NCBI RefSeq assembly: GCF_014773365.1 | Contig: NZ_JACWUN010000003.1 | Coordinates: 186,001 to 250,000 of the forward strand | Length of the DNA: 64,000 nucleotides | Origin: Pelovirga terrestris | Lineage (GTDB): Bacteria > Desulfobacterota > Desulfuromonadia > Desulfuromonadales > Geopsychrobacteraceae | Direction: 5' to 3' | Shown: in pieces, positions 5,916 through 56,179 of the stretch | How the letters are laid out: every line of letters begins with the position of its first letter | Numbering within the stretch: the stretch's first letter is position 1 | Translations under genes and position numbers: made by a program | The notes under the pieces: generated by a model | What the model saw: the letters and a program-made list of their open reading frames with translations, nothing else | Database searches by the model: none | Told to the model about the DNA's origin: nothing

Positions 5916-6050
5916 CAACTGTTCAGCACGATCCTTGCACCGGGTCGAGCAGCCTGTGGCAAGGGTTTTTGGTCACCATGGACGGCGACAAAAAGCGGTC
6001 ATGGATGACGAAAAGCGCCCCTTGATCCTGGCCTGGTGCTGAACAGATAC
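5916..6050 (+). repeat. Dispersed structured repeat, copy A
   Basis: About 135 bp with inverted ends: ACTGTTCAGCACGATCCTTG at the left, TGGTGCTGAACAGATA at the right. The interior contains TGTGGCAAGGGTTTTTGG and GACGGCGACAAAAAGCGGTC, shared almost word for word with copies at 12024, 27355 and 56034. In this copy the central stem (GTCGCC.../GGCGAC in the others) is weakened by GGTCACC. It lies between the TRAP permease and its receptor gene. Boundaries are judged by eye from the four copies. Confidence 0.8.
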
Positions 6051-6105
6051 AAATTAGATAGATGGTCCCGGGCTTTCTGCCGGTTTTGAGCAGGCCGCAA
6101 CGGAA

Positions 6106-6133
6106 AAAATGCACCGCCGAAGCGGTGCATTTT
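6106..6133 (-). terminator. Terminator after the TAXI receptor gene
   Basis: Perfect stem AAAATGCACCGC / GCGGTGCATTTT with a four-base loop (TTCG on the minus strand), followed on that strand by a run of T. It lies 12 bases past the stop of the binding-protein gene and before the permease, so it should reduce or stop transcription into the permease. Confidence 0.85.
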
Positions 6134-6144
6134 GTGGGTGTTTA

Positions 6145-7113
6145 TTAAAGTAGACCAGCCTCTTTGTAGTATTTAATAGCGCCAGGATGCAATGGGGCAG
6201 AGAGACCATCCTTGACCATCTCTTCTTTTTTCAGATTTTCAAAAGCTGGGTGCAGACGCTTGAAATCGTCAAAATTATCGAACACGGCCTTAACAACATG
6301 ATAAATCACATCTTCAGGAACCTTGGTGGAAGAAACAAAGTTCGCACCGACACCAAAGGTTGTCGTAGTCTCGCTATTGCCGCGATACATTCCACCCGGG
6401 ATCGATGCGGCACGATAATAATCGCGCTCGGCAACCAGCTTGTCGATTTCAGGGCCGGTTACGTTAACCAGTACCGAGTCACAAGCAGTCGTTGCTTCCT
6501 GAATCGAACCGTTCGGGTGGCCAACGACGTAAACAATGGCGTCAATACGATTATCACACATGGCAGCAGACTGCTCGGCAGGACGCAACTCAGAAGCCAG
6601 ACGGAAGTCACTAACGGTCCAACCAAGAGCGTCAAGAACAACCTCGGTGGTGCTACGTTGACCGGAACCGGGGTTACCAATATTCACGCGCTTGCCCTTA
6701 AGATCCTTGAAGTTGCGCACACCGGAATCAGCACGGGCAACAACAGTGTAAGGCTCGGGATGAATGGCAAATAAAGAACGCAGGTCTTTATTGGGGCCGG
6801 CAGCTTCAAAGGTGCTGGTACCGTGATAGGCATGATATTCCCAGTCAGACTGGACAACGCCGAGGTCCAGATCACCGGCGGCAATGGTGTTCAGGTTATA
6901 AATTGATCCACCGGTACTTTCAACCGTGCAACGGATACCGTGATCTTTACGATCCTTGTTGACCAGCCGGCAGATCGCACCGCCAGTGGGATAGTAGACA
7001 CCCGTGACGCCACCGGTACCAATGGTGACAAACTGGTTGGCGACCGCTTCGGGGACAGGAGTCATCCCGATAGCTACGGTCAGGGCGAGGGCATACATAA
7101 ACAGCTTTTTCAT
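6145..7113 (-). CDS. TAXI-family TRAP solute-binding protein
   Basis: Periplasmic receptor of 322 residues that captures the substrate for the downstream fused TRAP permease. The N-terminus is a clear signal peptide ([16 protein letters not shown], cleavage expected after the AVA near residue 26). The mature part begins with [19 protein letters not shown], the hallmark of the TAXI family, and continues with a type-II periplasmic-binding fold ([20 protein letters not shown] around the middle). The start at 7113 is fixed by AGGAGG nine bases upstream and by the signal peptide; a longer upstream frame exists but would bury it. A promoter and an early terminator-like hairpin precede the gene, suggesting attenuation. 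Substrate not determined. Confidence 0.92.
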
Positions 7114-7144
7114 GGTTTTCAGCCTCCTAGATCTATGATTGATG

Positions 7145-7167
7145 AAAAAAGCCCACCCGATGTGGGC
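7145..7167 (-). terminator. Terminator/attenuator in the TAXI gene leader
   Basis: On the minus strand GCCCAC-ATCGG-GTGGGC is followed by six T residues, a short intrinsic terminator. It ends only about 20 bases before the AGGAGG of the TAXI gene, leaving no room for another promoter downstream. It could end transcripts from asnS, or act as an attenuator for the TAXI gene. Confidence 0.55.
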
Positions 7168-7189
7168 GAAAATATAGATCGAAAGCGCC

Positions 7190-7217
7190 ACTATAACACA
7201 ATGACCGGCACTGACAG
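7190..7217 (-). promoter_or_regulatory. Candidate sigma-70 promoter for the TAXI gene
   Basis: On the minus strand CTGTCA (7212-7217) and TATAGT (7190-7195) are 16 bases apart, matching -35 and -10 boxes. The predicted start near 7183 puts the terminator-like hairpin within the first 40 bases of the transcript. The rest of the gap to asnS (7218-7403) shows no gene or clear signal. Confidence 0.4.
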
Positions 7218-7403
7218 GACATTTGTTGCTTAAAACAGTCTGGTGAGGTGGGGACCGGGCGCATCAGGCAGACACAAAAGTCCTCAAGCAGCAAGCAGTG
7301 CCGGAATTATAACCATTAGAAGGACAATAATCAAGGCGTTCAGACAAGTGCACAACGCTTGCACAATAGCCGGAAGTCGGCCCGGCACCCGCCTGACTGA
7401 GAG

Positions 7404-8798
7404 CTAAAAACGCGCATGACCTGGAGTGCGTGGGAAGGGAATAACGTCACGAATGTTTTCCATGCCGGTCAGATACATGAGCAAACGCTCAAAGCCGAGA
7501 CCGAAACCGGCATGGGGACAACTTCCCCAGCGCCGGATATCCAGATACCAATCCAGGCTGGCGGGTTCAATTCCGTGCGCGATCATGCGCTGTTCCAGCA
7601 CCTCCAGGCGCTCTTCACGCTGACTGCCGCCGATGATTTCACCGACCCGCGGCACCAGCAGATCCATGGCGGCAACGGTTTTGTTGTCATCATTGCGGCG
7701 CATGTAAAAGGCCTTGATCTGCTGCGGGTAGTCGGTAACAAAAATCGGCCCGGCAAACACCTCTTCGGTCAGATAACGCTCATGTTCCGACTGCAGGTCC
7801 TGTCCCCAGGCCACCGGAAACTCAAAGGCTCGACCCGACTGCTCCAGCAGTCTGATCGCCTCACTATAGCTCACTCGGTGAAACTGCCCCCCGACAAGCT
7901 GTTCGAGGCGATCAATCAGCCCCGGCGCAATACGCTCGTTAAAAAAAGCCAGGTCATCACGGCAATGCTCCAGAGCGTAGGTAACCAGATAGCGGAAGAA
8001 CGCTTCGGCCACCTCACAGTTCCGCTCCAGGTCGGCAAAGGCCATCTCCGGTTCAATCATCCAGAATTCACTGGCATGACGACTGGTATTGGAATTCTCA
8101 GCCCGGAAGGTTGGGCCAAAGGTATAGATATCGGCGAAAGCCATGGCGAACAACTCACCCTGCAGCTGACCACTGACCGTCAACCCGGCCCTGTTGCCGA
8201 AAAAGTCCTGTGCCCAATCGATCCGGCCATCAATCATGGGAGGGGTAGCAGGGTTCAGGGTGGTTACCCGGAACATCTCACCGGCGCCTTCGCAATCATT
8301 GGTAGTAATAATCGGGGTATGGACATACAAAAAACCCCGCTCCTGAAAAAACTGGTGCACAGCAAACGCCAGGGCACTACGCATGCGAAAGACCGCACCA
8401 AAGGTATTGGCCCGCGGACGAAGATGGGCGATGCTGCGCAGATATTCAAAGCTGTGGCGTTTTTTCTGTAACGGATAAGCGGCATCGACCCCACCGAGCA
8501 ACTCCAACTGGTCGGCCTGCAGCTCCCATGATTGCTCGGCGGCCGGTGATGGCACCAGATTTCCCTGCACAGCAATGCAGGCCCCGGTGCCCAGTGCGGT
8601 CAGCGCCGGCGCCTCCAGCAGGGAGGCAGCAACAACGATCTGCAGTGAACCCTGGCAGCTGCCATCATTCAGGGCAATAAAAGCAATATCCTTTCCCCGG
8701 CGCACCGACCTGACCCAGCCGCAGACGCGGATCTGCGGTTGTTGCTTTGAACTGTTGAGTAACTCCTTAACTGTGGATCGAGATGTCGACATCTGCAT
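7404..8798 (-). CDS. asnS: Asparagine--tRNA ligase
   Basis: Cytoplasmic class IIb aminoacyl-tRNA synthetase of 464 residues, close to the 466 of E. coli AsnS. It charges tRNA-Asn with asparagine. The N-terminal OB-fold anticodon-binding domain (RVCGWVRSVRRGKDIAFIAL) is followed by the catalytic core. Motif 2 region FRAENSNTSRHASEFWMIEPE and motif 3 GFGLGFERLLMYLTGMENIRD are visible, and the substrate-pocket pattern fits AsnS rather than AspRS. ATG at 8798 follows AAAGGA by five bases; a longer frame upstream lacks a ribosome-binding site. No neighbouring gene suggests cotranscription with a pathway. Confidence 0.95.
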   Translation of the reverse strand: MQMSTSRSTVKELLNSSKQQPQIRVCGWVRSVRRGKDIAFIALNDGSCQGSLQIVVAASLLEAPALTALGTGACIAVQGNLVPSPAAEQSWELQADQLELLGGVDAAYPLQKKRHSFEYLRSIAHLRPRANTFGAVFRMRSALAFAVHQFFQERGFLYVHTPIITTNDCEGAGEMFRVTTLNPATPPMIDGRIDWAQDFFGNRAGLTVSGQLQGELFAMAFADIYTFGPTFRAENSNTSRHASEFWMIEPEMAFADLERNCEVAEAFFRYLVTYALEHCRDDLAFFNERIAPGLIDRLEQLVGGQFHRVSYSEAIRLLEQSGRAFEFPVAWGQDLQSEHERYLTEEVFAGPIFVTDYPQQIKAFYMRRNDDNKTVAAMDLLVPRVGEIIGGSQREERLEVLEQRMIAHGIEPASLDWYLDIRRWGSCPHAGFGLGFERLLMYLTGMENIRDVIPFPRTPGHARF

Positions 8799-8851
8799 AC
8801 CAGTCCTTTGGTTCAGTACCACCAGCGAACGACGTGAACGACCAGCGGTCG

Positions 8852-9268
8852 TTAATCAACAAAGCGTCCGCCACGCGACTCGATAAAAGATCCATATCTT
8901 TTATCCACCTTCACTATATGCTCAAGCAGCCAGGTACGCAAAAAATTCAGCAATTCTCGGGCGGCGCTCTCATCCATGGCAGCATGGTCGGTTTTTCGTT
9001 TTTCTACTGCAGCAACAAGACGTTGATGCTCCTGCTGATGTTCCTCGAAGCCGGAGAACTGATATTCCTGCATCAGCCTTTCTTCGTGAGCAAAATGCTC
9101 CAGCACATAGACATCCAACATCGCAACGACATCGGCATACACTTCATTCCCCCGTTTGTCGCGCACCGCCTCAAACAGGACATTGATCTGCTTAACCAGC
9201 TCTTGATGTTCTTTGTCCAGCACCACGATACCGGTTTCATATACCTGTTTCCACTTGATTATCGCCAT
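8852..9268 (-). CDS. Bacteriohemerythrin
   Basis: Single-domain hemerythrin of 138 residues that should bind O2 at a di-iron centre. All seven ligands of the family are present: His21, His58, Glu62, His77, His81, His117 and Asp122 (patterns DKEHQ, HFAHEE, HQQEH, HIVKVD). ATG at 9268 is seven bases after AGAGG; the GTG at 9274 is too close to the site. It begins 22 bases after a large sensor kinase on the same strand, so the two are probably cotranscribed. Proposed roles of such proteins in microaerophiles and anaerobes are O2 scavenging, O2 delivery or O2 sensing; the kinase neighbour makes a link to signalling worth testing. Confidence 0.93.
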   Translation of the reverse strand: MAIIKWKQVYETGIVVLDKEHQELVKQINVLFEAVRDKRGNEVYADVVAMLDVYVLEHFAHEERLMQEYQFSGFEEHQQEHQRLVAAVEKRKTDHAAMDESAARELLNFLRTWLLEHIVKVDKRYGSFIESRGGRFVD

Positions 9269-9290
9269 CTTCACCCTCTGCTAATGCCTG

Positions 9291-11972
9291 CTAGTTTTCA
9301 TTAAGCGTCGGCAGGCAAACCTCGAAACTGCTGCCGCTACCTGACTCCGACGATACCGACATAAAACCCCGATGATTCTGGGTAATAATATGATACGCAA
9401 TCGATAAACCCAGGCCCACCCCCCGACCTACTTCCTGCGTGCTATAAAAAGGATCAAACACCCGGCGACACACCTCAGGGGACATCCCTGTGCCGTTATC
9501 TCTGACTTCGAGGCAAACATAACTGCCTTTAGCTTCAAGTCGCAGGGTAATCTGCGGATCAGCATCAACATTCACCAGCGCTTGCGCGGCATTTTTCAAC
9601 AAAATCAGGATCACCTGTTGAATCTGCCCGGCATCACAGACCACCTCCGGGATAGAATGATAATTACGAACAATGGCGATGCGTTGAAATTTCAGCTGGC
9701 GGCGCATGTCATAGTCGCTGACCGCCAGATCCAGGGTTCGTTCGACCAGATCATCCAGAGCATGGCGCGAGAAATCACTGCCCGATGAGCGGCTGAAGGT
9801 CTGAATATTTTCAACGATTTTTGCTGCCCGGGTACCGGCTTCGGCAATCGAACCAAACATGATGTCACACTTCTTCTCGTGTAGATAGGCAGCAATGGCC
9901 TTCATCGAGGTGCCTAGCTGTTCAGCTGTTTCACAGTTTTTACTGAATTCCGGGGACAAACGTCGCTGAAGAACCTGCACTGTCTGTAAAATCACCGCCA
10001 GTGGATTATTCAGCTCGTGGGCAAAGCCGGCCGCTAGTCCGGCAACGGATTCTATCTTTTCTTTCTGAATCAGGATCTGTTCCAACGCTACCTGTTCCGT
10101 CACATCATCCATATGAATGACCGCGCCACCGTCCTGGGAACTGGGCAGAGGATAAATCAGGATATTATAGTGCCGCTTCGCTTTGCTCCGGTCCTGCCCA
10201 TACCCTTCAACCTGTTGCAGGCGAACCGGTTTCTGGCTGGCCAATGCAGTCTGTAACGCGGTCAGGATGGTTTTGTATTTAATCAGCTGGAGGGCATCCT
10301 TCAGGGCGATTCCTCTAGCGTGGGAAGAGCTCAATCGGCATTCCTGCTCCGCCCGCCGATTCCAGAGCGTTATCTTCAGCTCCGCATCCACCGCGATCAG
10401 AATGGACGGCATGGAATCAATGATGCGCTGAAGAAAGTTTTTCAACTGGTTCAAACTTTCTTCAGTGGTCTTACGCAGGGAAATATCCTGCATGGTTCCT
10501 TCGATAAACAGGGGTTCCTTGTTATCACTGTAGACCAGATGATTATTGAGCGCCATCCAGAAGAACTGGCCATCTTTACGCTTTGCCGGCACTTCAAAAT
10601 CTTTGCTGGCGCCATGGTCATATAGCAGGCGGAGCAACCGCCGACGATCTTGCGGATTGACGTACAACTGGTTTTCAAGATCATCATAATAAGCAAGAGC
10701 TTCCGCCTCTGTGGTGTGTCCCAGCATCGCCACCGCAGCCGGATTCAGGGCCAGGAACCGACCATCAAGACTGGCGCGGTAGATCCCTTCGGTAGCGTTG
10801 GTGAAAATTTCGCGGTAGCGGCTCTCTGAGTCCCGCACGGAAACGAAGCTCTTTTCAAGGCTGCCCAACATATCGTTGAACACCGACTCGATCTGATCCC
10901 ATTCGTCGGAACGTTCCAACCGCATAGGGGTCGAGCGATCGCCCTCCTGAAAGGCCCGCAAGCGCTCCCCTACCTGCCCCATCGGCTGTTGCACGTGACG
11001 GATAAACAACCAGCGATGACTGCCCAGAACAGCTCCTATCAGGACAAAACAGACGGCCAGCGCACCGGCAAAAACCTGACGCAAGGTAGTGCTGATCTCC
11101 TGTCTGGCTGTTCTGACGGCGCCACTGGCTTGCAGATCGAGATCCTGCATCGCAGCCGTGATCCGCTCGGTCAGGAGGTTAAGACGCTGCCCCTGTTCGC
11201 TCAGCAGGGCAATGTCACGCTGATGTTGATGGAGCAGATAAGCCATATGGTCAATCCGCCCAAGCAACTCACGTCCGAACAGATTGGCGGGAAAGTCTCT
11301 GGCGGAAAACTTACCGGCAATGGCCTTAATCGGTTCAAGTTGGGCAAGGATGGCGCGCTGATCCAAGGGCAGGAAAATCTGCTCGTAGGTGCGATCAACC
11401 GACAAAAACATCGTCAAAACTTGCTGAAAACCAACCCGTAACTGGCGCAGCTCGACGAAGGTCTTCATCACCGTATCATCAACAGATCCTGCCATGATCT
11501 GCCGCATAAGCCCTTCGCTGTTGAATATCAGCAGGTCATCCAGCCCTTCTTCCTGCCACCGCCGTTGTAAAAAGGTATAGTTTATCCAGTAAGCGCGATG
11601 AAGAAAATGTTGATATTCTTCCTGCAGCTGATAGAGCAGATGGCGCTGCTCATGATCCCTGACCTGTCCGGCCAGCTGTTCAATGAACGCTTCCAACGCT
11701 CGACCTTCAGTCGCAACCAGGTCCCGATTCCCGTAAAAAGTAGCACGGAACACCCCCAGACGCGCTACCAGCACACCAAAATCAGAACGATTCTGTGAAT
11801 TATCGAGGGCCTGCTCAAAACGATTCCCGATCAGTTGGTCAACATTGTCCTGCAGGCGTGCCAACAGCAGGAAGACAACGACCGTTGTCAGCAGAAAAAT
11901 CAGCAGAGAGAAAATCGAAAGGATCCTAAGACGTGAATTAATAGAGGTGAATTTGCTGTGAACAACCACCAT
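9291..11972 (-). CDS. Membrane sensor histidine kinase with two PAS domains
   Basis: Protein of 893 residues. A first membrane segment (residues ~18-38) and a second (~300-320) bracket a ~260-residue, largely helical periplasmic region with no named domain that I can recognise. A HAMP linker and two PAS domains follow (the second starts near IIDSMPSILIAVDAELKITLWN). Then come a HisKA domain with the phospho-accepting His in AGFAHELNNPLAVI and an HATPase domain with DNGTGM and GVGLGLSIAYHI. There is no receiver domain, so a separate response regulator must exist; none is adjacent. The bacteriohemerythrin gene follows directly. The Shine-Dalgarno is weak. Signal unknown. Confidence 0.9.
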   Translation of the reverse strand: MVVVHSKFTSINSRLRILSIFSLLIFLLTTVVVFLLLARLQDNVDQLIGNRFEQALDNSQNRSDFGVLVARLGVFRATFYGNRDLVATEGRALEAFIEQLAGQVRDHEQRHLLYQLQEEYQHFLHRAYWINYTFLQRRWQEEGLDDLLIFNSEGLMRQIMAGSVDDTVMKTFVELRQLRVGFQQVLTMFLSVDRTYEQIFLPLDQRAILAQLEPIKAIAGKFSARDFPANLFGRELLGRIDHMAYLLHQHQRDIALLSEQGQRLNLLTERITAAMQDLDLQASGAVRTARQEISTTLRQVFAGALAVCFVLIGAVLGSHRWLFIRHVQQPMGQVGERLRAFQEGDRSTPMRLERSDEWDQIESVFNDMLGSLEKSFVSVRDSESRYREIFTNATEGIYRASLDGRFLALNPAAVAMLGHTTEAEALAYYDDLENQLYVNPQDRRRLLRLLYDHGASKDFEVPAKRKDGQFFWMALNNHLVYSDNKEPLFIEGTMQDISLRKTTEESLNQLKNFLQRIIDSMPSILIAVDAELKITLWNRRAEQECRLSSSHARGIALKDALQLIKYKTILTALQTALASQKPVRLQQVEGYGQDRSKAKRHYNILIYPLPSSQDGGAVIHMDDVTEQVALEQILIQKEKIESVAGLAAGFAHELNNPLAVILQTVQVLQRRLSPEFSKNCETAEQLGTSMKAIAAYLHEKKCDIMFGSIAEAGTRAAKIVENIQTFSRSSGSDFSRHALDDLVERTLDLAVSDYDMRRQLKFQRIAIVRNYHSIPEVVCDAGQIQQVILILLKNAAQALVNVDADPQITLRLEAKGSYVCLEVRDNGTGMSPEVCRRVFDPFYSTQEVGRGVGLGLSIAYHIITQNHRGFMSVSSESGSGSSFEVCLPTLNEN

Positions 11973-12023
11973 AAGAAACCTGTCGTCTTAATACCTAAAA
12001 AAGATAAAAGAAGAAAAAAGCAC

Positions 12024-12167
12024 GTAACTGTTCCGCACCGGATCTTCGGATCCTATGTCGAGGGACGCTGTTCGTCATCCATGTCCGCTTTTTGTCGCCG
12101 TCCCTGGCGACAAACACCCTTGCCACAGGAGCCCTGACCTTGCACAAGGATCGTGCTGAATAGTTAA
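12024..12167 (-). repeat. Dispersed structured repeat, copy B (inverted)
   Basis: Reverse-oriented copy of the element at 5916. Ends read GTAACTGTTCCGCACCGG and CGATCCTTG(rev)...GCTGAATAGTTA. The core on the minus strand holds the perfect stem TTTGTCGCC-AGGGAC-GGCGACAAA. It lies between the sensor kinase and prfC, and its two sides run into AT-rich sequence. Reading frames through it are artefacts. Nothing else is seen in the 11973-12310 gap. Confidence 0.8.
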
Positions 12168-12310
12168 GGCACATCGCCAAGCGGAGAAGAGATAATTAGC
12201 ATGCTCAAACGTTATTTACAAGGATCAAGGCATAAAAATAAGCAGCCCGGGACAAATCGCCACACCTGCATCTTCCGCATGCCGGAACTACCGGAATCTC
12301 AAGGTGAAAA

Positions 12311-13891
12311 TTACTTATATTCGCGCGATTTGAGAAACTCGATCCCTTCCCACTGTTCGAGGGTATGCTGTAAACGCCACTCACTGGCGGCCAGATAGGT
12401 CAGCTCCCCTTCGGCATCGATAGCCAGATTGTTCTGGTTTTTCTTCTGGAACTCTTCCAGGCGCTTGCGGTCTTTGGCACGAATCCAGCGAGCGGTGGTA
12501 AAATCGACACCTTCGTAGACCGCGTTAACATTGTATTCGGCTTTCAAACGCTCCATGGTCACGTCAAACTGGAGAACGCCCACAGCACCCAGGATAAACT
12601 CAGCACCATTGACCGGCTTGAACACCTGGACGGCACCTTCTTCGGCCAATTGGATCAAGCCCTTTTGCAACTGTTTGGACTTGAGGGGGTCCTTCAGCCG
12701 GACGCGACGAAAGTGCTCCGGCGCGAAGCTGGGTATGCCCGTGAATTTAAGGGGTTCCTTATCGCTGAAGGTGTCACCGATCTTAATCGTGCCATGATTG
12801 TGCAGACCGATGATATCCCCGGGAAAAGCCTCTTCCACATGGGCGCGATCCTGGGCCATAAAAATGGTCGCATTGGCCAGGGAAATATCCTTGCCGATCC
12901 GGTGGTGGCGCACCTTCATGCCACGGCTGAATTTCCCCGAACAGATCCGCAAAAAAGCAATACGGTCGCGGTGAGCCGGATCCATATTCGCCTGGATTTT
13001 AAACACAAACCCGGAAAACTGCTCTTCATCCGGCGCCACCATCCGTTCGGCCGCCGCCCTGATCCCCGGCGGTGGTGCCAGTTCAACAAAGGCATCCAGC
13101 ATCTCCTGCACACCGAAGTTATTGATGGCGCTACCAAAAAACACCGGCGTCTGGTTAGCACGCAGATACTCATCGCGATCAAAGGGGTTGGCCGCGCCCT
13201 GAAGCAATTCAATGTCATCCCGCAATTCCTGCGCCTGGGTACCGAGCAATTGATCAAGTTCGGGACTGTTGATGTCATCAATGCTGATGATGTTGGTCTT
13301 GCGGCGGTCTTCGCCGGGGCGAAACAGGTGCAACTCGTTGCGGTAGAGGTTATAGACCCCTTTAAAGCGCTTCCCCATGCCGATCGGCCATGACAATGGC
13401 GCACATTCGATCTGCAGCTTTTCCTCGATATCAGCGAGGAGATCAAGGGGGAATTGCCCCTCGCGGTCGAGCTTGTTGATGAAGGTCAGCACCGGGGTAT
13501 TACGCATCCGGCACACTTCCATCAGTTTTTCGGTCTGGGGCTCGACCCCTTTGGCACTGTCGATGACCATCAGGGCACTGTCCACCGCGGTGAGAACCCG
13601 ATAGGTATCCTCGGAAAAATCCTGGTGACCGGGGGTATCAAGAAGGTTGATCTCAAAATCACGATAGTCAAACTTCATCACCGAAGAAGAAACAGAAATC
13701 CCCCGCTCCTTTTCAATATTCATCCAGTCACTGGTGGCGTGACGATCCGACTTGCGCGCCTTGACGGTTCCGGCCATCTGGATGGCGCCACCAAACAATA
13801 ACAGCTTTTCGGTCAGGGTGGTTTTACCGGCATCCGGGTGACTGATAATACCGAAGGTGCGGCGTTTGGCTATTTCCTGCTGCAAAGTCAT
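12311..13891 (-). CDS. prfC: Peptide chain release factor 3
   Basis: Translational GTPase RF3, 526 residues (E. coli 529), which removes RF1/RF2 from the ribosome after peptide release. G1 motif HPDAGKTTL (residues ~18-26), G3 [12 protein letters not shown] and G4 NKLDRE are all present, followed by the domain II barrel and the RF3-specific C-terminal domain. ATG at 13891 has ACGGAGA eight bases upstream. The gene is flanked by noncoding DNA and appears monocistronic. Confidence 0.96.
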
Positions 13892-27354: not shown

Positions 27355-27508
27355 GTAACTAGTTACTACCGTCCTTGCGCAGGATCGAGGTTCCTGTGGC
27401 AAGGGTGTTAGTCGCCAGGGACGGCGACAACAAGCGGTCATGGATGACCCGGCGGGAAACAATCGCGTCCCTTGACATAGAATCCCCGAGCCGGTGCTGA
27501 ACATATAC
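27355..27508 (+). repeat. Dispersed structured repeat, copy C
   Basis: Same element as at 5916. It contains TCCTTGCGCAGGATCGAGG, CCTGTGGCAAGGGTG, the central stem GTCGCC-AGGGAC-GGCGAC, GGGAAACAATCGCGTCCC and the right end CCGGTGCTGAACATATAC. The left end is degenerate (GTAACTAGTTACTACCG). It lies between the DUF1015 gene and the cobalamin promoter. Reading frames through it share peptide sequence with other copies only because the DNA is repeated. Confidence 0.8.
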
Positions 27509-27601: not shown

Positions 27602-27617
27602 GATCCACAATCGAACG

Positions 27618-27815
27618 TTTCGCCGGTGCCGCAAGGCTTGTTACTCTACCCTGGGTAGGACAACAACGGGAAGTGAGGTGTAAATCCTCCACGGACCCGC
27701 CGCTGTAAGCGAGTTAGATCTTGGACAACAAAGCCACTGGTTTTTTCAACTGGGAAGGCCGTCCGGGGCACCGGCAATCAGCCGGTAACTTGCAAGTCAG
27801 AAGACCTGCCGTCGA
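27618..27815 (+). ncRNA. Cobalamin (AdoCbl) riboswitch
   Basis: Class I cobalamin riboswitch. The conserved core is plain: CCGGTGCCGCAAGGC at the 5' side, GGGAAGTGAGGTGTAAATCC, CCACGGACCCGCCGCTGTAA, AAGCCACTGG with TGGGAAGG, and the B12 box-like AAGTCAGAAGACCTGCC at the 3' side. It controls the cobalt transport and cobalamin synthesis operon that follows. Ligand binding should favour the terminator at 27875. Boundaries are approximate. Confidence 0.95.
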
Positions 27816-27874
27816 AACATCCACTTTAATCTCCCCGGGACAGGGAGCGTGGGCAAGCGCGGCTTTAAATTCGG

Positions 27875-48295: not shown

Positions 48296-48353
48296 CGTTC
48301 AGACGAAAAATGGCCGTGGGAGAAGACAGGAGTTTGACCTTCGCCTGAACATA

Positions 48354-48401: not shown

Positions 48402-48539
48402 ATTTCTACGCTTTCTTTGGGCCTGACGGGATAGGACCAGGCCAACCCACCGATATCAGGTCACGACCTTTCCTGCACATTCCGAGCATCTGCTGAAAAC
48501 CTGTTACTCTAATTTTTTGCACAACTGGCATTGCTATGT

Positions 48540-48746
48540 TTACCTTCCCCTACCCCCAGACCAACCTCCACCACCGGGGGCACCACATCCTCCCGGCCTA
48601 TCAATACCTCTCGGGACAGCTGGTCTCTCCATCCTTTCCAGCCTTTCAAGCTGGTCCGGACGTTCCATTCTTTCTGGTTTCCCAGCAGGAATCTCGCCTT
48701 TGGCCTTGACACATTTCACCACCAGCGGTTTGTGTTTGCGTAGCAT
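48540..48746 (-). CDS. Hypothetical short protein or gene remnant
   Basis: A 68-codon frame with an unusual composition: MLRKHKPLVVKCVKAKGEIP, then PERMERPDQLERLERMERP with repeated ERMERP units, then a Gly-rich tail. The frame is open for about 20 codons upstream (LGDQNAANRFGTDKKVAE) without a start or Shine-Dalgarno, so this may be the 3' end of a lost gene. I do not recognise a family. The surrounding 48404-48838 stretch has nothing else that I can support. Confidence 0.25.
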   Translation of the reverse strand: MLRKHKPLVVKCVKAKGEIPAGKPERMERPDQLERLERMERPAVPRGIDRPGGCGAPGGGGWSGGRGR

Positions 48747-48838
48747 TTCGGCAACTTTTTTATCGGTTCCAAATCGGTTTGCAGCGTTCTGGTCGCCCAG
48801 TTATCTGATCCTGGGGACATGCTTAAATGGTTGACCCC

Positions 48839-49525
48839 CTACCCGATCACCACCAGCTCGATCCCCAACTCTCGACAGGCCTGCCGCTTCTGTTCAAAGC
48901 CACTTCCCTCGCCGCTGTTCTTGGTCACCAGGCCGTCGATGCGGTACTCGCGACAGAGGGCCAGGTTGAACGCCGTGGAAAACGGCCCTTGCAGGGCGAT
49001 GATGCGCGAGCGAGGAAATCCGGCGGCGACGCATTTGGCGATGGAGTCTTCAAAGGGGAGGACGCGGGCATAGCCGCGGGTGGCGAGGTGGGCGAAGCGG
49101 TCAATGCTGTTGCTGCCGGTAGTGAAGAGGATGCGTTGATGGGGGGAACTCAGCAGGTAGGCGGCGGCTTCATCGGCGCTGGTGCAGGTCACGATTCCCG
49201 GTTCTACTTGGAGTTCGGCGACCGGGCGTACCCGGTCTTCGCAGACGATCGCACACTCTTCGGCAACCCGGCGGGCGATGGCGCTGATTTCCCTGGCGTG
49301 AGGGTGGGTGGTGTCGATGATCCGGGTGATGCCCTGTTCAGCGATAAAGCGTGTCAAACTCTCCAAACTGAAACGGGTGTGGATGACCCGTCCCGGATAG
49401 CGGACGCCGAATTCCCGCAGACCGTAGTCGGTGGCGACACTGATGATCAGGGGCTGCTCTTCCGCTTCGTCCAGTTCAGCGACCACCTGATGGGTGGTGG
49501 AGGTGCCGCCCAATACGAGGATCAT
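48839..49525 (-). CDS. cbiJ: Cobalt-precorrin-6A reductase CbiJ
   Basis: NAD(P)H-dependent reductase of 228 residues that reduces the macrocycle of (cobalt-)precorrin-6A. MILVLGGTSTTHQVVAEL is the nucleotide-binding start, and IDTTHPHAREISAIA, LFTTGSNSI and the C-terminal LVTKNSGEGSGFEQKRQA are the family landmarks. It is the last gene of the minus-strand corrin operon, overlapping cbiH by four bases. Confidence 0.95.
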   Translation of the reverse strand: MILVLGGTSTTHQVVAELDEAEEQPLIISVATDYGLREFGVRYPGRVIHTRFSLESLTRFIAEQGITRIIDTTHPHAREISAIARRVAEECAIVCEDRVRPVAELQVEPGIVTCTSADEAAAYLLSSPHQRILFTTGSNSIDRFAHLATRGYARVLPFEDSIAKCVAAGFPRSRIIALQGPFSTAFNLALCREYRIDGLVTKNSGEGSGFEQKRQACRELGIELVVIG

Positions 49526-50268
49526 TCACGTTCTCCGTATTTGGCAGTGTAACCGCGCGGCGTGACCAGCTTGCCGTTTTTAAGGATGGTGCGGGTACTG
49601 CCGACCATAACCAGGGTGCTCATGTCGATGTTTTCCAGATCAAGCTGACTTAAGTAGCCGGTCCAGGTGTGTTCCCCCTCCCGGTAACAGTGGCGCACGA
49701 AACCACAGGCGAGGTCACCGCGCTCCGCCATGAAGCGCTGCACCGTGTGGGCGAGCTGGCTGGTACGCTTTTTACTGCGCGGGTTGTAGATGGCGCAGAC
49801 GAAGTCACCGCTGTTGACCGCCTCAATGCGCTTCCGGATCAGTTCCCAGGGGGTAAGCAGGTCGGACATGGAGATGATGGCCAGATCGTCGGCGATGGGG
49901 GCCCCGAGGCGCGCCGAGGCGGCCATGGCGGCGGTAATGCCGGGGATCACTTCGATGGCATCGGGGGCGTGGGCCAACTCGAAAACCAGCGAGGCCAGGG
50001 AGTACAGCGACGCATCACCGCCACAAACCAGAGCAACGCGCTGCCCCTGCTCCATGGCAGCCAGGGCCTTCTCCACCCGCTCCTTCTCACCGGTCATGCC
50101 GTTGCTGAAGACCTGAGCGGTAGCGGGGATCAGATGCTCTATCTGTTCCAGATAGGGTTTATAACCACAGACGTAGTCGGCGCTTGAGATGGCGTGACCG
50201 GCGGCGGGAGCCATGTAGGCCTCTGATCCGGGGCCGGTTCCAACCACAAACAGAATTCCATCAGGCAT
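49522..50268 (-). CDS. cbiH: Cobalt-precorrin-3 C17-methyltransferase CbiH/CobJ
   Basis: SAM-dependent methylase and ring-contraction enzyme of 248 residues. Conserved stretches: LFVVGTGPGSEAYMAPAAG, ADYVCGYKPYLEQI, VALVCGGDASLYSLASLVFE, VIPGITAAMAASARLGAPI and IYNPRSKKRTSQL. The open frame extends 80 codons upstream, but the ATG at 50268, overlapping the cbiG stop by eight bases, gives the family's normal N-terminus. Confidence 0.95.
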   Translation of the reverse strand: MPDGILFVVGTGPGSEAYMAPAAGHAISSADYVCGYKPYLEQIEHLIPATAQVFSNGMTGEKERVEKALAAMEQGQRVALVCGGDASLYSLASLVFELAHAPDAIEVIPGITAAMAASARLGAPIADDLAIISMSDLLTPWELIRKRIEAVNSGDFVCAIYNPRSKKRTSQLAHTVQRFMAERGDLACGFVRHCYREGEHTWTGYLSQLDLENIDMSTLVMVGSTRTILKNGKLVTPRGYTAKYGERE

Positions 50269-51052
50269 GAATGAGTCCTTCCCGGGCGATGGCGATGGTG
50301 ACAGAATCGATAACGGTGCGCGGCAACAACAGGCGCGGGTTGACGGCTGCCAGCAGGGCCGAGGGCTCGGCCACACCGGGAATCCCCAGATGGCGCATGG
50401 GACCGTCGTGAACAGTAAAATGATAGAGGGAGTTCTCATAGGCGCTGCGGGGCAGAAAGCGCAGATAAAGCCCCAGATCCACGATCGCATCCAGCAGACC
50501 CGCTTCATCCTGCTTGAGCCAGGCCGAAGTTACCAGCCGCAGTTGATCAGTCGTAATCCCCGCCTGTTCACAGCCACAACGGATAGCGTGCAGAATCGCC
50601 GCTTTGTGGGTGCCGCGACGGCAGCCGATCCCCAGCACATGGCAGCGGTTGGCCTCGGTAGCGGTGGTGATGACCGGGGTTGCACCGGTGATAGACGCCA
50701 CAGCGTGGGCAAGATGGTTGGCACCCCCTTCGTGACCGGAAAGGGTACTGATGGCGAAGCGTCCCACCTCGTCACAGGTGACCACGGCAGGGTCCTGGTA
50801 TTTGGACTGCAGGTGGGGGGCGATCATACGGGTGACGATCCCCTGGGCCATGACCGCGACAATCCCGCGCTTGCTGCCGCCCATCAACAGGGCGAACTGG
50901 TCGGCGAGGGAATCGTAGGGGCCGGCATCATATGCCGTGGCCATTCTTCGAGGTAGATGGAGACGACCGCCCAGTCCGGCGCTGATTTCCGCCGCCAGCC
51001 GCGCCCCGGCCCCGGTGACAGCGATGACTGCAACTTCAGGGGCGGGTGCCAT
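50261..51052 (-). CDS. cbiG: Cobalt-precorrin-5A hydrolase CbiG
   Basis: Opens the lactone ring of cobalt-precorrin-5A and releases acetaldehyde, a step specific to the anaerobic pathway. At 263 residues it is shorter than Salmonella CbiG (351). The N-terminal region (VAVMAQGIVTRMIAPHL, VVTCDEVGRFAISTLSGHEGGAN) and C-terminal region (VLGIGCRRGTHKAAI) are joined directly, so the middle domain seems absent. The start at 51052 has a weak ribosome-binding site and overlaps cbiF by 17 bases. Confidence 0.92.
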   Translation of the reverse strand: MAPAPEVAVIAVTGAGARLAAEISAGLGGRLHLPRRMATAYDAGPYDSLADQFALLMGGSKRGIVAVMAQGIVTRMIAPHLQSKYQDPAVVTCDEVGRFAISTLSGHEGGANHLAHAVASITGATPVITTATEANRCHVLGIGCRRGTHKAAILHAIRCGCEQAGITTDQLRLVTSAWLKQDEAGLLDAIVDLGLYLRFLPRSAYENSLYHFTVHDGPMRHLGIPGVAEPSALLAAVNPRLLLPRTVIDSVTIAIAREGLIHA

Positions 51053-51803
51053 GGCTGAAATCCCGGTCATAGAGTTTTGAATAAGCGCCGATGGCACCCA
51101 AAGGCTTGCCGATAATCACCACTGCATGCTTGTTGACACCGCTCTCGGCAATCTGCCCGGCCATATCCGCCAGGGTGCCGCGCCGCATCAGCTCATCGGG
51201 CCAGCTGGCGCGATAGACCATGGCTACGGGAGTTTGCGGGCTCCAGCCCTGGTCGAGAAACTGCCGGGCAATCTCGCCGAAGCGATTCACCGAAAGGTAG
51301 AAACAGAAGGTGCCGCCATGGCAGGCCAGGCGCGCCACCTCTTCATCCTCGGGCACCGGCGTGCGCCCGGCAATCCGGCTGATAACCAGGGTCTGGGACT
51401 GTTCCGGCGCGGTCAACTCGGTGCGCAGGGCGGCGGCCGCCGCGAACACCGCCGTGACACCGGGAATGACCGAATAGGCAATATCCCGTTGATCGAGCTC
51501 GGCCATCTGCTCCTGAATGGCACCGTAAAGGGAGGGATCGCCGGTATGCAGACGCGCCACGCTGTGACCCTCGCCGGTGGCCGCGACCATGACGGCAATA
51601 ATCTGCTCCAGATTCATGGAGGCGGAGTTGTGAATAGCAGCACCGGCAATGCAGTGATCAAGGATTTCCGGAGCCACCAGACTGCCGGCGTAGATAACCG
51701 TCCGGCAGCGCTTGATGGCGTTGATTCCTTTAAGGGTGATCAGCTCCGGATCGCCGGGTCCGGCGCCGATAAAATAGACCTGAGGACGCTGACTGTTATC
51801 CAT
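51036..51803 (-). CDS. cbiF: Cobalt-precorrin-4 C11-methyltransferase CbiF/CobM
   Basis: SAM-dependent methylase of 255 residues. YFIGAGPGDPELITLKG, VIYAGSLVAPEILDHC, RLHTGDPSLYGAIQEQM and VIPGVTAVFAAAAALRTELT match CbiF closely. ATG at 51803 overlaps the cbiE stop by eight bases; the TTG three bases earlier is less likely. Confidence 0.96.
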   Translation of the reverse strand: MDNSQRPQVYFIGAGPGDPELITLKGINAIKRCRTVIYAGSLVAPEILDHCIAGAAIHNSASMNLEQIIAVMVAATGEGHSVARLHTGDPSLYGAIQEQMAELDQRDIAYSVIPGVTAVFAAAAALRTELTAPEQSQTLVISRIAGRTPVPEDEEVARLACHGGTFCFYLSVNRFGEIARQFLDQGWSPQTPVAMVYRASWPDELMRRGTLADMAGQIAESGVNKHAVVIIGKPLGAIGAYSKLYDRDFSHGTRP

Positions 51804-52428
51804 CAAATTGACCTTCCTTCTCTTTTTTTATTCCCACCACACAACTCAAGGGACCTTCAGGGATGACCGTTTTCCTGGTTACGGGGACGATCATTTGATT
51901 ATCAAGGCTGAGGTTACTCATGACCCAGAGGTCAAAGTGCTCAAGAAGTAGACTGTAGCGCTCCAGAATCGTGCGGGGATGGTGGCTGTGATCGCAGAGC
52001 AGCAAAAAACGTGCGCTTGCCATGATAGCCGCAATGTCCAGCTCCTGCCGTCCGTGAGCAGAAAAGAATCGGGCCTCCTGCCAGGGTTCGGCAATAGCGG
52101 CAAAAGCGGCCTGAACGACGCTGACGCCGGGAATAACCGTCACTGATTCCCGTCCAAAGGCCTGCACAACGGCGCGGCTGAGGCTGTAGAACCCGGCATC
52201 ACCGCTGACCAGCACACCGATGCATTGGTCCGGATGGTTACGGATATACGCGATCGTCCCGCTGACCAGCGGCACCGGTTCATGACAGGGGATCGTCAGC
52301 CCCCCGGTCAGGCGCGGCGCGCCAACGGCCAGGTCGATGGTTTCCAACGCCTGACAGGCGCGTACCGTCAGCAACTCGGGGCTACCGGGACCCATGGAGA
52401 TGATAAAAATGCGGGGTTGTTGATTCAC
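51796..52428 (-). CDS. cbiE: Cobalt-precorrin-7 C5-methyltransferase CbiE
   Basis: Methylase subunit of 210 residues acting on C5 of the ring. FIISMGPGSPELLTVRACQAL, GVLVSGDAGFYSLSRAVVQAF and VIPGVSVVQAAFA are typical. In many bacteria CbiE is fused to or followed by CbiT, the C15-methylating decarboxylase; here neither fusion nor a cbiT gene is present. The ATG overlaps the cbiD stop. Confidence 0.92.
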   Translation of the reverse strand: MNQQPRIFIISMGPGSPELLTVRACQALETIDLAVGAPRLTGGLTIPCHEPVPLVSGTIAYIRNHPDQCIGVLVSGDAGFYSLSRAVVQAFGRESVTVIPGVSVVQAAFAAIAEPWQEARFFSAHGRQELDIAAIMASARFLLLCDHSHHPRTILERYSLLLEHFDLWVMSNLSLDNQMIVPVTRKTVIPEGPLSCVVGIKKEKEGQFDG

Positions 52429-53426
52429 AGATCACCTGAATTTGCTGTGGGATAACTTGCCAAAAGTATTCCCGCCATATCAAACAGCAACACCTCCACC
52501 CGCGCAAAACCGAAATCCCTCTGCACCCGTTCGGCAATGCGCTGCGCCACCGGAGCAAAAGATGCCGGATAGCGCTGACAAATTTCCTCGACGGTGTTGA
52601 AGGTCCCGGTCAGCTCCAGCATAGCGGCGACAAAACCCTGCGCCTGGGGGGAGGCGTTGGAGTGGGTGTTATAGCAGCCCATGGCTAATTTAGCCAGCTT
52701 GCCGGGATGCCCGGCGAGGGTCAGTTTTTCTACCTGTCGCCGGCGCAGATAAGCCAGGGCCTCGGCAAAAGCGTTGCTCACCAGCACGGCACTGGTGCCG
52801 GGGTGCAACGCCTGCAAATACTTTTCACCGATCTTGCCGGGCACCAGGGTGATGGGATGGCCCTCAGCCAGTTGTACGTCAATTTCACAGCGGATGGTGT
52901 CCACCAGCGCCTGAACGCTCATGGGTTCAACGATTCCGGTGGTACCGATGATGGATATTCCCCCCTCAATACCCAGACGCGCATTGAAGGTCCGCGCCGC
53001 CAGCCGCTTGCCGTCCGGCACCCAGAGAGTCACGACAGCGCCGCGAGCCGCACCGATCTCCGCCCGCACATTGGCTTCGATCATGGCGCGGGGGACCGGA
53101 TTGATAGCGGCCTGCCCGACGGGAATCTGCAAACCGGGGCGCGTGACCACACCAACCCCTTCGCCGCCGACGATATGGATAGCGGTATCGTCCTCACGCA
53201 ACGCCACCCGGGCCCATATCGCTGCGCCGTGGGTGACATCGGGATCGTCACCGGCGTCCTTGATGACCATGGCACCATGGGACCGGCAGACAACAGGGAC
53301 ACTCAGCCTCCCTCCGTCAGGGAGCATGACGTCGACATCATCGCCGTTCAGCTGATGAATGATGAACCGGGCATGGGCTCTGGCAGCGGCCGCTGCAGCG
53401 GTTCCGGTGGTAAATCCTTTTCGCAT
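52425..53426 (-). CDS. cbiD: Cobalt-precorrin-5B C1-methyltransferase CbiD
   Basis: Methylates C1 of the ring in the anaerobic pathway; 333 residues. The N-terminal MRKGFTTGTAAAAAARAHA is the family hallmark, followed by KDAGDDPDVTHGA, GGEGVGVVTRPGLQIPVG and INPVPRAMI, and SIIGTTGIVEPMS. It is the first gene of the minus-strand operon cbiDEFGHJ. No riboswitch is visible upstream, in contrast with the plus-strand half. Confidence 0.96.
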   Translation of the reverse strand: MRKGFTTGTAAAAAARAHARFIIHQLNGDDVDVMLPDGGRLSVPVVCRSHGAMVIKDAGDDPDVTHGAAIWARVALREDDTAIHIVGGEGVGVVTRPGLQIPVGQAAINPVPRAMIEANVRAEIGAARGAVVTLWVPDGKRLAARTFNARLGIEGGISIIGTTGIVEPMSVQALVDTIRCEIDVQLAEGHPITLVPGKIGEKYLQALHPGTSAVLVSNAFAEALAYLRRRQVEKLTLAGHPGKLAKLAMGCYNTHSNASPQAQGFVAAMLELTGTFNTVEEICQRYPASFAPVAQRIAERVQRDFGFARVEVLLFDMAGILLASYPTANSGDL

Positions 53427-53764
53427 GGGGAGCGATGGTGTGCTGAATAAACATGCCTGTCAAGACTTTTGCACCGAGATAGTTCAGAATGTAACTTTAT
53501 TTGGCAACAGCTTCGCTGAACAGACCATAGTTCAAGATATCTGCGTCATTTTAACCAACTGGTGGGGAGGGAAACCTGAGCTGTCTGGATCTGGCACTGG
53601 AAGCGCAAACATTGGGCAAACCCGTCTACCTGATTGATCCGCAGCAAAAAAATAACTTTACCGACGGGCGCTGCTGGCGCAAAATTGAGCAGTTGCTGCA
53701 ACAGGGGTCTGTCTCTTTACGCAACGAGGATCATTTGTTCGAGCATCTGCAGGTTGGGACATAG
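53425..53764 (+). pseudogene. Frameshifted gene with Rossmann-like C-terminus
   Basis: Two overlapping frames seem to belong to one broken gene. The first (ATG 53425) reads DFCTEIVQNVTLFGNSFAEQ and then TIVQDICVILTNWWGG. The second, open from 53555 and lacking a start, reads TGGEGNLSCLDLALEAQTLG, then KPVYLIDPQQ, and stops at 53764. Joined at GGTGGGGAGGG near 53565, they give a strand, glycine-rich turn, helix pattern like DprA/SLOG-type nucleotide-binding proteins. I do not recognise the exact family. It starts inside the first codon of cbiD on the other strand. Confidence 0.5.
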
Positions 53765-53819
53765 TTTTTGATTATAAATAAAGGTCGCTGCTGAAAAAAC
53801 CATTAAGGGAGATCATCTC

Positions 53820-54788
53820 ATGCCCACCACTGACCGCTGCCGCATCCTGATCGCCGATGCCGACCTGATGGGTGTAGCCAGCCTGATCGGAACCTTGAAG
53901 GATCGTTATCATGTCGTTACCGCCAACTCCAGCGATCAGCTGTTAACACTGCTCCATCAGCAGTCCATTGATCTGCTGCTGCTGGACACCAGCCTGCCGG
54001 GGGAAGAACCCTTCCAGCTCTGCGAGAAACTTCGGCAGGAGGATAAAACCACTCACCTCCCGATCATCTTTGTTGCACCCCAAGCCTCACCCCAACAGGA
54101 AGAGAAGGCCTTTGAGTGCGGAGCCTCCGATTACATTGCTCGTCCCTATACCGCCCCTTCGGTCAAAGCGCGGGTCAAAAATCAGTTAAAGCTCAGCGCC
54201 GCCCTGGCTGAACTCAAGCGTCTCAACACCCTGGCGCTGGATGCCAACCCCAACACCGGTCTGCCGGGCAACAACAGCATTCATCAGGAGCTGGAACGGC
54301 TGCTGAACAGCAATGAAGAATACTGCGTTATCTATGCCGACCTTGATCATTTCAAACCCTATAATGATGTCTACGGCTTCGCCCGTGGCGACGAGATGAT
54401 CATTTTTACCGCAAACGTAATCCGCGTTGCCCTCCACGCTGCCGGTTGCGGCCATGCCTTTCTTGGCCATATCGGCGGTGATGATTTCATGTTTACCCTG
54501 CCCTCGAGTGTTGCGGCGCGGGTCACTGATGATATTTTACGGCGCATCGATCTGGAAATCCCTGAATTTTATTCCCCCGATGATCGTCAACGCGGTCACA
54601 TCCTGGCGGCTAACCGTGAAGGAGTTGAACAGCTTTTTCCTCTAGCCAATTTAAGTTTGGGGGGTATTGATCTGGCGGTGCGACGCTTTAACAGTGTCCT
54701 GGAAATGATCGACGCCTGCACCGAGATGAAAAAGCTGGCCAAACAGAGCTCATCCAGCAGCGTTCAGATTTGTCGCCGGCGAGGGTAA
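53820..54788 (+). CDS. Receiver-GGDEF response regulator
   Basis: Protein of 322 residues. A receiver domain (ILIADADLMGVASL, acceptor Asp in DLLLLDTSLPGEE) is joined to a GGDEF domain that begins NPNTGLPGNNSIHQELERLL, with YADLDHFKPYNDVYGFARGD and the active-site loop GGDDF. Asp replaces Glu in the fourth position of GGDEF, a change known in some active and some inactive cyclases, so c-di-GMP synthesis is possible but not assured. No kinase is adjacent. The upstream leader has AAGGGAG. Confidence 0.88.
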   Translation: MPTTDRCRILIADADLMGVASLIGTLKDRYHVVTANSSDQLLTLLHQQSIDLLLLDTSLPGEEPFQLCEKLRQEDKTTHLPIIFVAPQASPQQEEKAFECGASDYIARPYTAPSVKARVKNQLKLSAALAELKRLNTLALDANPNTGLPGNNSIHQELERLLNSNEEYCVIYADLDHFKPYNDVYGFARGDEMIIFTANVIRVALHAAGCGHAFLGHIGGDDFMFTLPSSVAARVTDDILRRIDLEIPEFYSPDDRQRGHILAANREGVEQLFPLANLSLGGIDLAVRRFNSVLEMIDACTEMKKLAKQSSSSSVQICRRRG

Positions 54789-54805
54789 GGGGGATGAATA
54801 TTCCT

Positions 54806-55402
54806 TCAGAAGTGTTCGGGATAACGAAACGACAGATTATAACGTCCCAAAAAGTTCTGCAGCAGGCGGTAGGTGATCCCCCACAGGGGGCGATTGCTCC
54901 ACTCGGGCAATTCAATGACCGGATGGCGACGCCCGGCGCCGCGATAGTGAAACTGGTGCAGGCGATTGCGCGCCGGATCAAGCAAGGTGCGAAACGGTAC
55001 CCAGAATAGGTCGACCACCTCACCGTTGAGGCGAAAAGCAGGTTCGTTGTCAAGCTGATAGACAAAGCAGGCAATGTGAATTGACAAATAAGCCCCGGCC
55101 AGATCATCACTGCGACCAAGGTACTGGTATGGGGCAAGCTCCAGCCCGATCTCCTCGAGGGTTTCCCGTTCGGCTGCGGCCTGTGGACCGGGATCTGTCG
55201 GATCAACGCCGCCCCCCGGAAAAGCCAGATCCCCCGACCAGGGATCGAGTTCATGCTCGGCGCGCCGGATAAACAGAACTTGCGTTTCTCCGGCCTGCTC
55301 ACGCAGCAGCATGGCCACTGCCGCCCGGCGGAAATCCTGCTGCGTCAACAGTTGTGGCTGATGTTGAGTCAGACCGGTTCTGATCTGTTGCAGGTCAATC
55401 AT
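54806..55402 (-). CDS. Nudix CoA pyrophosphatase, NudL-like
   Basis: Hydrolase of 198 residues likely to cleave CoA or acyl-CoA to phosphopantetheine and 3',5'-ADP. The Nudix box is GGGVDPTDPGPQAAAERETL followed by EEIGLEL, with a two- to three-residue extension in the variable part. The upstream FIRRAEHELDPWSGDLAFPG is the CoA-pyrophosphatase (UPF0035) signature. It follows efpL by five bases on the same strand. Confidence 0.9.
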   Translation of the reverse strand: MIDLQQIRTGLTQHQPQLLTQQDFRRAAVAMLLREQAGETQVLFIRRAEHELDPWSGDLAFPGGGVDPTDPGPQAAAERETLEEIGLELAPYQYLGRSDDLAGAYLSIHIACFVYQLDNEPAFRLNGEVVDLFWVPFRTLLDPARNRLHQFHYRGAGRRHPVIELPEWSNRPLWGITYRLLQNFLGRYNLSFRYPEHF

Positions 55403-55407
55403 GGCGA

Positions 55408-55971
55408 CTAAGCCCGGGAAACGAAGCGGCGCTCCCGGGTATCAACCTTGATTTTTTCCCCACTCTCAAGGTAGCCCGGCACCTGCACACTGATGCCGGT
55501 TTCAAGCACGGCCTCTTTGGTTTGAGCAGTGGCAGTAGCGTTACGAATCGCCGGCGCGGTTTCGGTCACGGTCAATTCCACCACCTGCGGCAGATCAATA
55601 GTGACAACCTGATCGTTATAGACGCCGAGGGTGACTTCGGCTCCTTCAAGCAAGTAACCGCGAATATCCTCATAGATATCGCCGCCCAGCTCATACTGTT
55701 CGAAACTTTCATTGTCCATAAACACGCCATGATCATCGGCAGCGTATAAAAACTGCCCCTTACGACGGGAAAAATCGGCCTCGTCGAAACGGTCGCCTGA
55801 TTTGAATGAACCAGTCAACACCTGGCCGGTCAGCAGGTTGCGATATTTGGTTTTGACCAGGGTGTTGCCACCACGCGCTGTCGGCGACTGGAAACTAACA
55901 TCCACCACCAGACAGGGAGCGGCATCATGCTGAAAAATGACACCACGACGAAAATCACTTGCTTCGATCAT
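55408..55971 (-). CDS. efpL: EF-P-like translation factor EfpL (YeiP)
   Basis: Three-barrel translation factor of 187 residues that helps ribosomes at polyproline and related stalls. It is the YeiP/EfpL paralogue rather than EF-P: the loop reaching the peptidyl-transferase centre reads FQSPTARGGNTLVKTK (Arg33 near the tip), as in YeiP, instead of the PGKG loop of standard EF-P. The C-terminus (ATATAQTKEAVLETGISVQV, VPGYLESGEKIKVDTRERR) also fits. ATG at 55971 has AAGGAG, spaced slightly long (11 bases). It precedes the Nudix gene. Confidence 0.92.
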   Translation of the reverse strand: MIEASDFRRGVIFQHDAAPCLVVDVSFQSPTARGGNTLVKTKYRNLLTGQVLTGSFKSGDRFDEADFSRRKGQFLYAADDHGVFMDNESFEQYELGGDIYEDIRGYLLEGAEVTLGVYNDQVVTIDLPQVVELTVTETAPAIRNATATAQTKEAVLETGISVQVPGYLESGEKIKVDTRERRFVSRA

Positions 55972-56033
55972 AAATTGGGATACTCCTTGGAATGACATTA
56001 CGACGGACAAAAAATATACTTTTATTATTGTAT

Positions 56034-56179
56034 CTGGTCAGCTCTATCCTTGCGCAGGGCCTTTGGATCCTGTGGCAAGGGTTTTTGTCGCCATGGACGG
56101 CGACAAAAAGCGGTCATGGATGACCCAACGGGAAACAATCGCGTCCCTTGACATAGGATTCAAAGGCCAGGTGCTGAAC
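56034..56179 (+). repeat. Dispersed structured repeat, copy D
   Basis: The cleanest copy of the element: CTATCCTTGCGCAGGGCC, ATCCTGTGGCAAGGG, the perfect stem TTTGTCGCC-ATGGAC-GGCGACAAA, AGCGGTCATGGATGACC, GGGAAACAATCGCGTCCC and the right end CAGGTGCTGAACC. The left end is degenerate. Located between efpL and the thioesterase gene. No gene is seen in 55972-56235. Confidence 0.8.

Follow-up and report, generated by a model that had tools for sequence, protein, structure and literature searches.

The window analysed here is a stretch of 64,000 nucleotides from Pelovirga terrestris (contig NZ_JACWUN010000003.1, positions 186,001 to 250,000), and it carries four copies of a geneless repeat whose members are 136-157 bp long. 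An initial annotation had described the copies, their nested palindromes and their intergenic placement, and had suggested either a non-autonomous mobile element (a miniature inverted-repeat transposable element, MITE, or a REP-like element) or a structured RNA family. All four copies were confirmed, at the positions given there or within a few bases of them. They are alike from end to end (mean column identity of 78% in a whole-element alignment), contain the palindromes, and are all intergenic according to a home-made gene caller. The difference between AGGGAC and ATGGAC is a single base change in a loop, and GGA is retained in both loops of all four copies. The features of the window are listed below. 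The strand is the one that bears the GGA loops, and KA08 is a metagenome-assembled genome (MAG) of a Desulfuromonadales bacterium.

5915-6050, + strand: element copy 1, core at 5956-6029; no core match in the equivalent spacer of KA08 (in L053)
12024-12167, - strand: element copy 2, core at 12054-12126; the equivalent spacer of KA08 contains an oppositely oriented copy (L035:3110-3193)
27355-27508, + strand: element copy 3, core at 27396-27479; a cobalamin riboswitch lies downstream
53640-53647: empty target site, a single CGCAGCAA; in KA08 an element (L042:2656-2801) lies between two such 8-mers
56030-56185, + strand: element copy 4, core at 56072-56155; common to KA08, whose alignment continues through the copy
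56093-56098 and 56116-56121: loops ATGGAC and ATGGAT of copy 4

The repeats are an IS66-type MITE, as indicated by their ends, by target duplications of 8 bp, by an empty site, and by insertion sequences (ISs) of the IS66 family that have the same ends in relatives. The ends are imperfect inverted repeats that are sharp in 53 aligned copies (GTAACTATTCAGC... and ...GGTGCTGAACAGATAC). Across 62 elements of full length, drawn from several genera, 77.6% of the positions in the 8-bp flanks match, compared with 33.8% in shuffled pairs. Exact 8-bp duplications flank 23 of the 62 elements, where 0.02 are expected, and at least seven of eight positions match in 36; exact duplications of 7 bp and 9 bp number one and zero, respectively. 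The KA08 insertion is flanked by two copies of CGCAGCAA (TTGCTGCG on the opposite strand), whereas the window holds one copy of this 8-mer, with the flanks on both sides aligning to KA08. The window copies themselves have decayed ends, and none has a perfect target duplication, so the duplication evidence comes from other copies. The evidence supports a MITE, as initially proposed; a REP-like element in the strict sense, lacking a target duplication, is not supported. At two loci (L029 and L031), the two unlike ends appear swapped relative to the core, as though the core had flipped between inverted arms.

A transposase with the same ends, which the initial annotation had proposed to look for, exists in relatives. 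A search with PF03050 found matches in 9 of 15 genomes, and 3 of the 13 IS66 loci examined carry GTAACTATTC at both ends (L123 in G008, L124 in G106, and L125 in G079). Each of the three has one open frame of 482-483 codons. L124 spans 1717 bp and has AATAAAAG on both flanks, an 8-bp duplication; its protein matches PF03050 and scores 283 bits with NCBIfam NF033517 (cut-off of 180). Three other loci (L115, L116, and L118) end in GTAAGCG. None of the three ISs with GTAACTATTC ends contains a match to the core at E 0.01, and their likeness to the element is confined to the ends. In the host genome (G000), no IS66 element with MITE ends was found, and its one IS66 match (L082) was rejected as a partner because its ends are unlike those of the MITE. 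A partner is thus evident in relatives, though not in the host, from which it may have disappeared.

Further copies, on whose existence the initial annotation had staked its proposal, abound. The host genome (3.1 Mb, 47 contigs) contains 83 matches to a 20-base core with at most three mismatches, and the reversed pattern, used as a control, has 3. The same search gave 98 matches in M55B183 (G002; control 0), 177 in KA08 (G003; control 1), 98 in G006 (control 1), and 12 in G001 (control 3). The 13-base left end, with at most one mismatch, matches the host genome 99 times (control 4), and BLAST found at least 43 matches there, with 40 of 111 candidates scored. Across the order, the core occurs at E 0.01 in 45 of 136 genomes and 17 of 53 genera. 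In a phylum-wide sample searched at E 0.001 with strict filters, 5 of 395 genomes match, all five within the order, and copy 2 has no match in plasmid and phage collections. Descent from a single ancestral locus was rejected, as the neighbours differ at seven loci of low-copy or end-less lineages (translations compared by eye). Some lineages (G024, G015, G114, G076, and G102) have copies with very different stem sequences, some of them without recognisable GTAAC ends, which suggests that the core outlives the ends. Within G015, the basal stems of four loci (L108, L189, L195, and L202) are very unlike in sequence, with pairing intact. Elsewhere, two or three elements stand head to tail (G003:C13:2782-3242; L032:5985-6204; L213:9238-9419), placing four to six GGA hairpins in series, an arrangement that recalls CsrB-like arrays.

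The core consists of a stem (CAAGGG/CCCTTG) that bears two hairpins with GGA loops. In an alignment of 32 cores (A2), 96.4% of the cells are paired, and double-change cells number 28, compared with 6.0 in shuffled alignments. In a broader alignment (A4; 34 distinct rows), the values are 96.9% and 73 compared with 16.6; A4 comprises the best locus from each of 31 genomes and six additional rows, which include two weak false matches, and was fitted to the model. Substitutions that preserve the stems across relatives, a second point on which the initial annotation had hung its proposal, are therefore present. GGA occupies both loops in all 31 genomes (12 genera) while the adjacent loop bases vary, an invariance that is partly conditioned because the core search model was built from GGA-bearing copies. 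The second loop base may also be G or A. Among loci from KA08, M55B183, and the host (A3), GGANG occurs twice in 59 of 71 rows. An alternative single-hairpin fold from RNAalifold was rejected, having no double-change cells. Some copies, window copies 3 and 4 among them, gain a small third helix from an insertion of 11 bases that follows hairpin 2 (A2 columns 56-66).

The two strands of the element are not equivalent. Within 23 bases outward on the stem arms, the mismatches on the GGA strand comprise 266 G.T and 36 A.C over all copies. With one element per genome, the counts are 51 and 4 in 29 of 30 genomes (L159 was missed by the pattern), where composition predicts 1.41 to 1 (binomial p 2e-8). 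Of 133 elements, 127 also give a more stable fold on the GGA strand than on its complement (mean of -69.5 compared with -59.5 kcal/mol); among random stretches the figure is 62 of 133. The elements in both tests were found with a core pattern that demands GGA on the chosen strand. Together, the mismatch asymmetry and the better folding of the GGA strand point to selection on its single-stranded form, and RNA is the simplest reading of that form.

The hexaloop form of the CsrA site is CANGGANG, and the predicted loops of the element fit a CsrA hairpin site. In the passages available from two studies, CsrA/RsmA sites are described as GGA in short hairpin loops, with such hairpins generally occurring in pairs (PMC4333381; PMC4383904), and the RNA family TwoAYGGAY (RF01731) is predicted to bind CsrA (PMC4333381). 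In an Rfam search of 11 loci at permissive thresholds, the best match was to TwoAYGGAY (39.3 bits, E 0.005; threshold of 43), and RsmZ (PrrB_RsmZ), of the same clan (CL00106), matched weakly (E 0.22). At E 0.01 or better, TwoAYGGAY matches occur in 10 of the 136 genomes, one of them over the gathering threshold (G077, 50.9 bits). Copy 4 has a sub-threshold match at 56050-56176 (34.6 bits compared with 43); at the gathering threshold there is none in the window, and the best score in the host genome is 36.7 bits. The TwoAYGGAY layout, two AYGGAY-type hairpins on a basal stem, is recovered from fold and covariation. The MITE and structured RNA readings, which the initial annotation had offered as alternatives, are supported simultaneously, the latter by the stem-preserving double changes, the one-strand excess of G.T over A.C, and the mostly sub-threshold TwoAYGGAY matches.

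The host has csrA, which adjoins fliW, and csrA is present in 67 of the 136 genomes. Over all 136, 29 of 45 genomes with at least one core match have it, compared with 38 of 91 without (p 0.018); for at least 20 matches, the counts are 11 of 14 compared with 56 of 122 (p 0.025). Among 84 good-quality genomes, the corresponding fractions are 23 of 30 and 26 of 54 for at least one match (p 0.012), 13 of 15 and 36 of 69 for at least 8 (p 0.019), and 10 of 10 and 39 of 74 for at least 20 (p 0.004). These tallies were made by hand, with matches counted up to 36 per genome and the cut-offs of 8 and 20 chosen post hoc. The association lends weak support, because the statistics ignore kinship.

These observations can be joined in one model, which we regard with moderate confidence as the correct one. 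The element would be a type II MITE mobilised in trans by a DDE transposase of the IS66 family that recognises GTAACTATTCAGC-type ends and makes 8-bp duplications; the role of an IS66 element as the mover is suggested by the matching ends. Between the ends, it would carry a cargo not found in the IS, a one-strand structured module of a basal stem and two GGA-loop hairpins. Transcription is assumed to occur by read-through from neighbouring promoters, and each transcribed copy would then yield two CsrA/RsmA-type hairpins, as would suit a dimeric CsrA. Jointly, many copies could titrate CsrA, and individual ones could bring local transcripts under CsrA control. Since no sense bias and no conserved U-run are seen and read-through is assumed, the role judged most likely, that of a dispersed CsrA decoy or a portable CsrA site, is an inferred one.

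Several observations weigh against this model. On the transposition side, the flanks of L123 match at six of eight positions, an imperfect duplication, those of L125 differ and show none, and the PF03050 search found no IS66 match in G002, G003, or G006. With respect to the RNA, hairpin 1 has a loop of five bases, not the CANGGANG hexaloop, in several lineages, and the GGA invariance carries the conditioning described above. Within the window's genus, a competing fold pairs both loops together (RNAalifold), and the minimum fold leaves the two loops open in 19 of 58 copies there, compared with 60 of 75 in other genera. The limit of 23 bases on the arms was chosen post hoc, and farther out, in the end repeats, A.C (88) exceeds G.T (53); this reversal places the asymmetry in the inner stem rather than in the ends of the transposon. 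The fold z values of window copies 1-4 are -5.20, -2.16, -1.41, and -6.95 on the GGA strand and -2.97, -2.88, -1.78, and -5.23 on the complement; in copies 2 and 3 the strands therefore do not differ. No conserved U-run was seen beside the 53 aligned copies, and the element's own promoter was not searched for. Between tandem genes, the GGA strand is sense in 11 cases and antisense in 26 (G000 with KA08 and M55B183, whose loci, found via the core pattern, are not a random sample), and sense in 10 and antisense in 13 in G079. The csrA association is modest and weaker over all genomes than among those of good quality. For at least 8 matches, csrA is found in 16 of 25 compared with 51 of 111 over all genomes (p 0.12). 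Moreover, 16 of the 45 core-bearing genomes, many of them incomplete, lack a csrA hit, as do copy-rich MAGs, some also incomplete (G001, G002, G064, G065, G072, G090, G096, and G099). A cis-acting mRNA element was rejected as an explanation, there being no sense bias and the antisense excess in G000 tracking the replication strand.

The modest csrA association and the lack of sense enrichment, together with the mobile signature, are also what an ordinary IS66-dependent MITE would show, one with hairpins that function in transposition or form incidentally and with GGA loops that are inherited and have no CsrA role. According to the available part of a review (PMC10969869), MITE transcripts commonly form stable stem-loops. 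However, the stems have been rewritten across 31 genomes in 12 genera while GGA stays and the adjacent loop bases vary, the core survives in copies without GTAAC ends, the three IS loci have no core match, and G.T outnumbers A.C on one strand; this explanation is rather unlikely in our judgement. G.T is the mildest mismatch in DNA as well, and folding of single-stranded DNA would likewise produce G.T tolerance, a further point against the CsrA model. The selected structure might be single-stranded DNA, such as hairpins on one replication strand or a target of an enzyme acting on such DNA. Of 68 copies, 52 have their GGA strand on the strand that is poor in G and presumably lagging (p 1.4e-5), made up of 24 of 32 in G079 (L211-L230; 33 matches, the weakest dropped) and 28 of 36 in G000 (L127-L146 and the window). 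We nevertheless consider selection on DNA improbable, given that duplications of 8 bp and IS66 partners of the DDE type point to insertion in double-stranded form, the loop identity fits an RNA-protein site, and near matches to the RNA family RF01731 occur.

Placement between genes and many copies with stable stems could also be expected of transcription terminators or stabilisers of mRNA 3' ends. In a count of 70 of 71 core matches (the weakest dropped), of which 9 have no gene on one side, 59 of the 61 non-edge copies are intergenic. Gaps between convergent genes are not enriched (12 of 59 copies, compared with a background of 44 of 242 gaps), on which ground the terminator reading was rejected; the aligned copies have no conserved U-run, and the retained GGA loops would go unexplained. 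We regard such a role as highly improbable. In the window, a cobalamin riboswitch (RF00174, 91.8 bits) lies at 27607-27827 on the + strand, just 3' of copy 3, and precedes a series of + strand genes.

The element resembles several known systems, each in part. Like TwoAYGGAY, it has a long basal stem and two AYGGAY-type hairpins, with the matches listed in the order scoring 30.8-39.3 bits apart from that in G077. Unlike that family, it is a multicopy transposable cargo, and all listed element copies but one are sub-threshold; moreover, the published TwoAYGGAY table, in the part available, lists human gut, gamma-proteobacteria, and Clostridiales, whereas the element is from Desulfuromonadales. 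With one-ORF IS66-family ISs it shares the GTAACTATTC ends and, in the case of L124, the 8-bp duplication, but it is geneless and similar at the ends alone. The Chunjie MITE of Geobacter uraniireducens is also a MITE, from a Geobacter species, and has dozens of mainly intergenic copies. However, it is 178-235 bp long, and the available part of a review that describes it mentions no RNA or CsrA role; the distinction is drawn by description. Multicopy intergenic families of Geobacter metallireducens (PMC2700814) are, in the excerpts available, also dispersed, some being predicted RNA elements and one set having inverted-repeat ends; they were compared by description alone, and a relative of the element may be among them. 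QMITE1 and QMITE2 of Coxiella burnetii are MITEs reported as a source of small RNAs, with no CsrA link mentioned in the available text. The sponge RNAs CsrB, RsmY, and RsmZ are described in the portions available as binding CsrA through repeated GGA hairpins, as is predicted for the element; they are dedicated many-site small RNAs, whereas the element has two sites per copy, dispersed and at times in tandem.

We classify the element as an IS66-type MITE whose cargo is a TwoAYGGAY-like RNA that probably binds CsrA. In the open-licence literature, as far as its available text extends, we found no paper linking CsrA with MITEs or with transposable or repetitive elements. The available part of one study calls the function of CsrA in delta-proteobacteria unknown and cites three predicted small RNAs (PMC11934962). 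CsrA antagonist RNAs are not established in these bacteria, and the element provides a testable candidate on mobile DNA. We tentatively propose, as a possibility, that an element family of the Desulfuromonadales took up a CsrA-binding RNA and multiplied it, in one relative to well over a hundred copies, giving both a dispersed sponge and portable regulatory sites. If this is true, the family would supply these bacteria with the missing counterpart of CsrB-type RNAs and would exemplify a riboregulator site that spreads by transposition. A mobile element may thereby scatter binding sites for a regulator genome-wide, and transposon load would be tied to a global regulator of biofilm formation and electron transfer.

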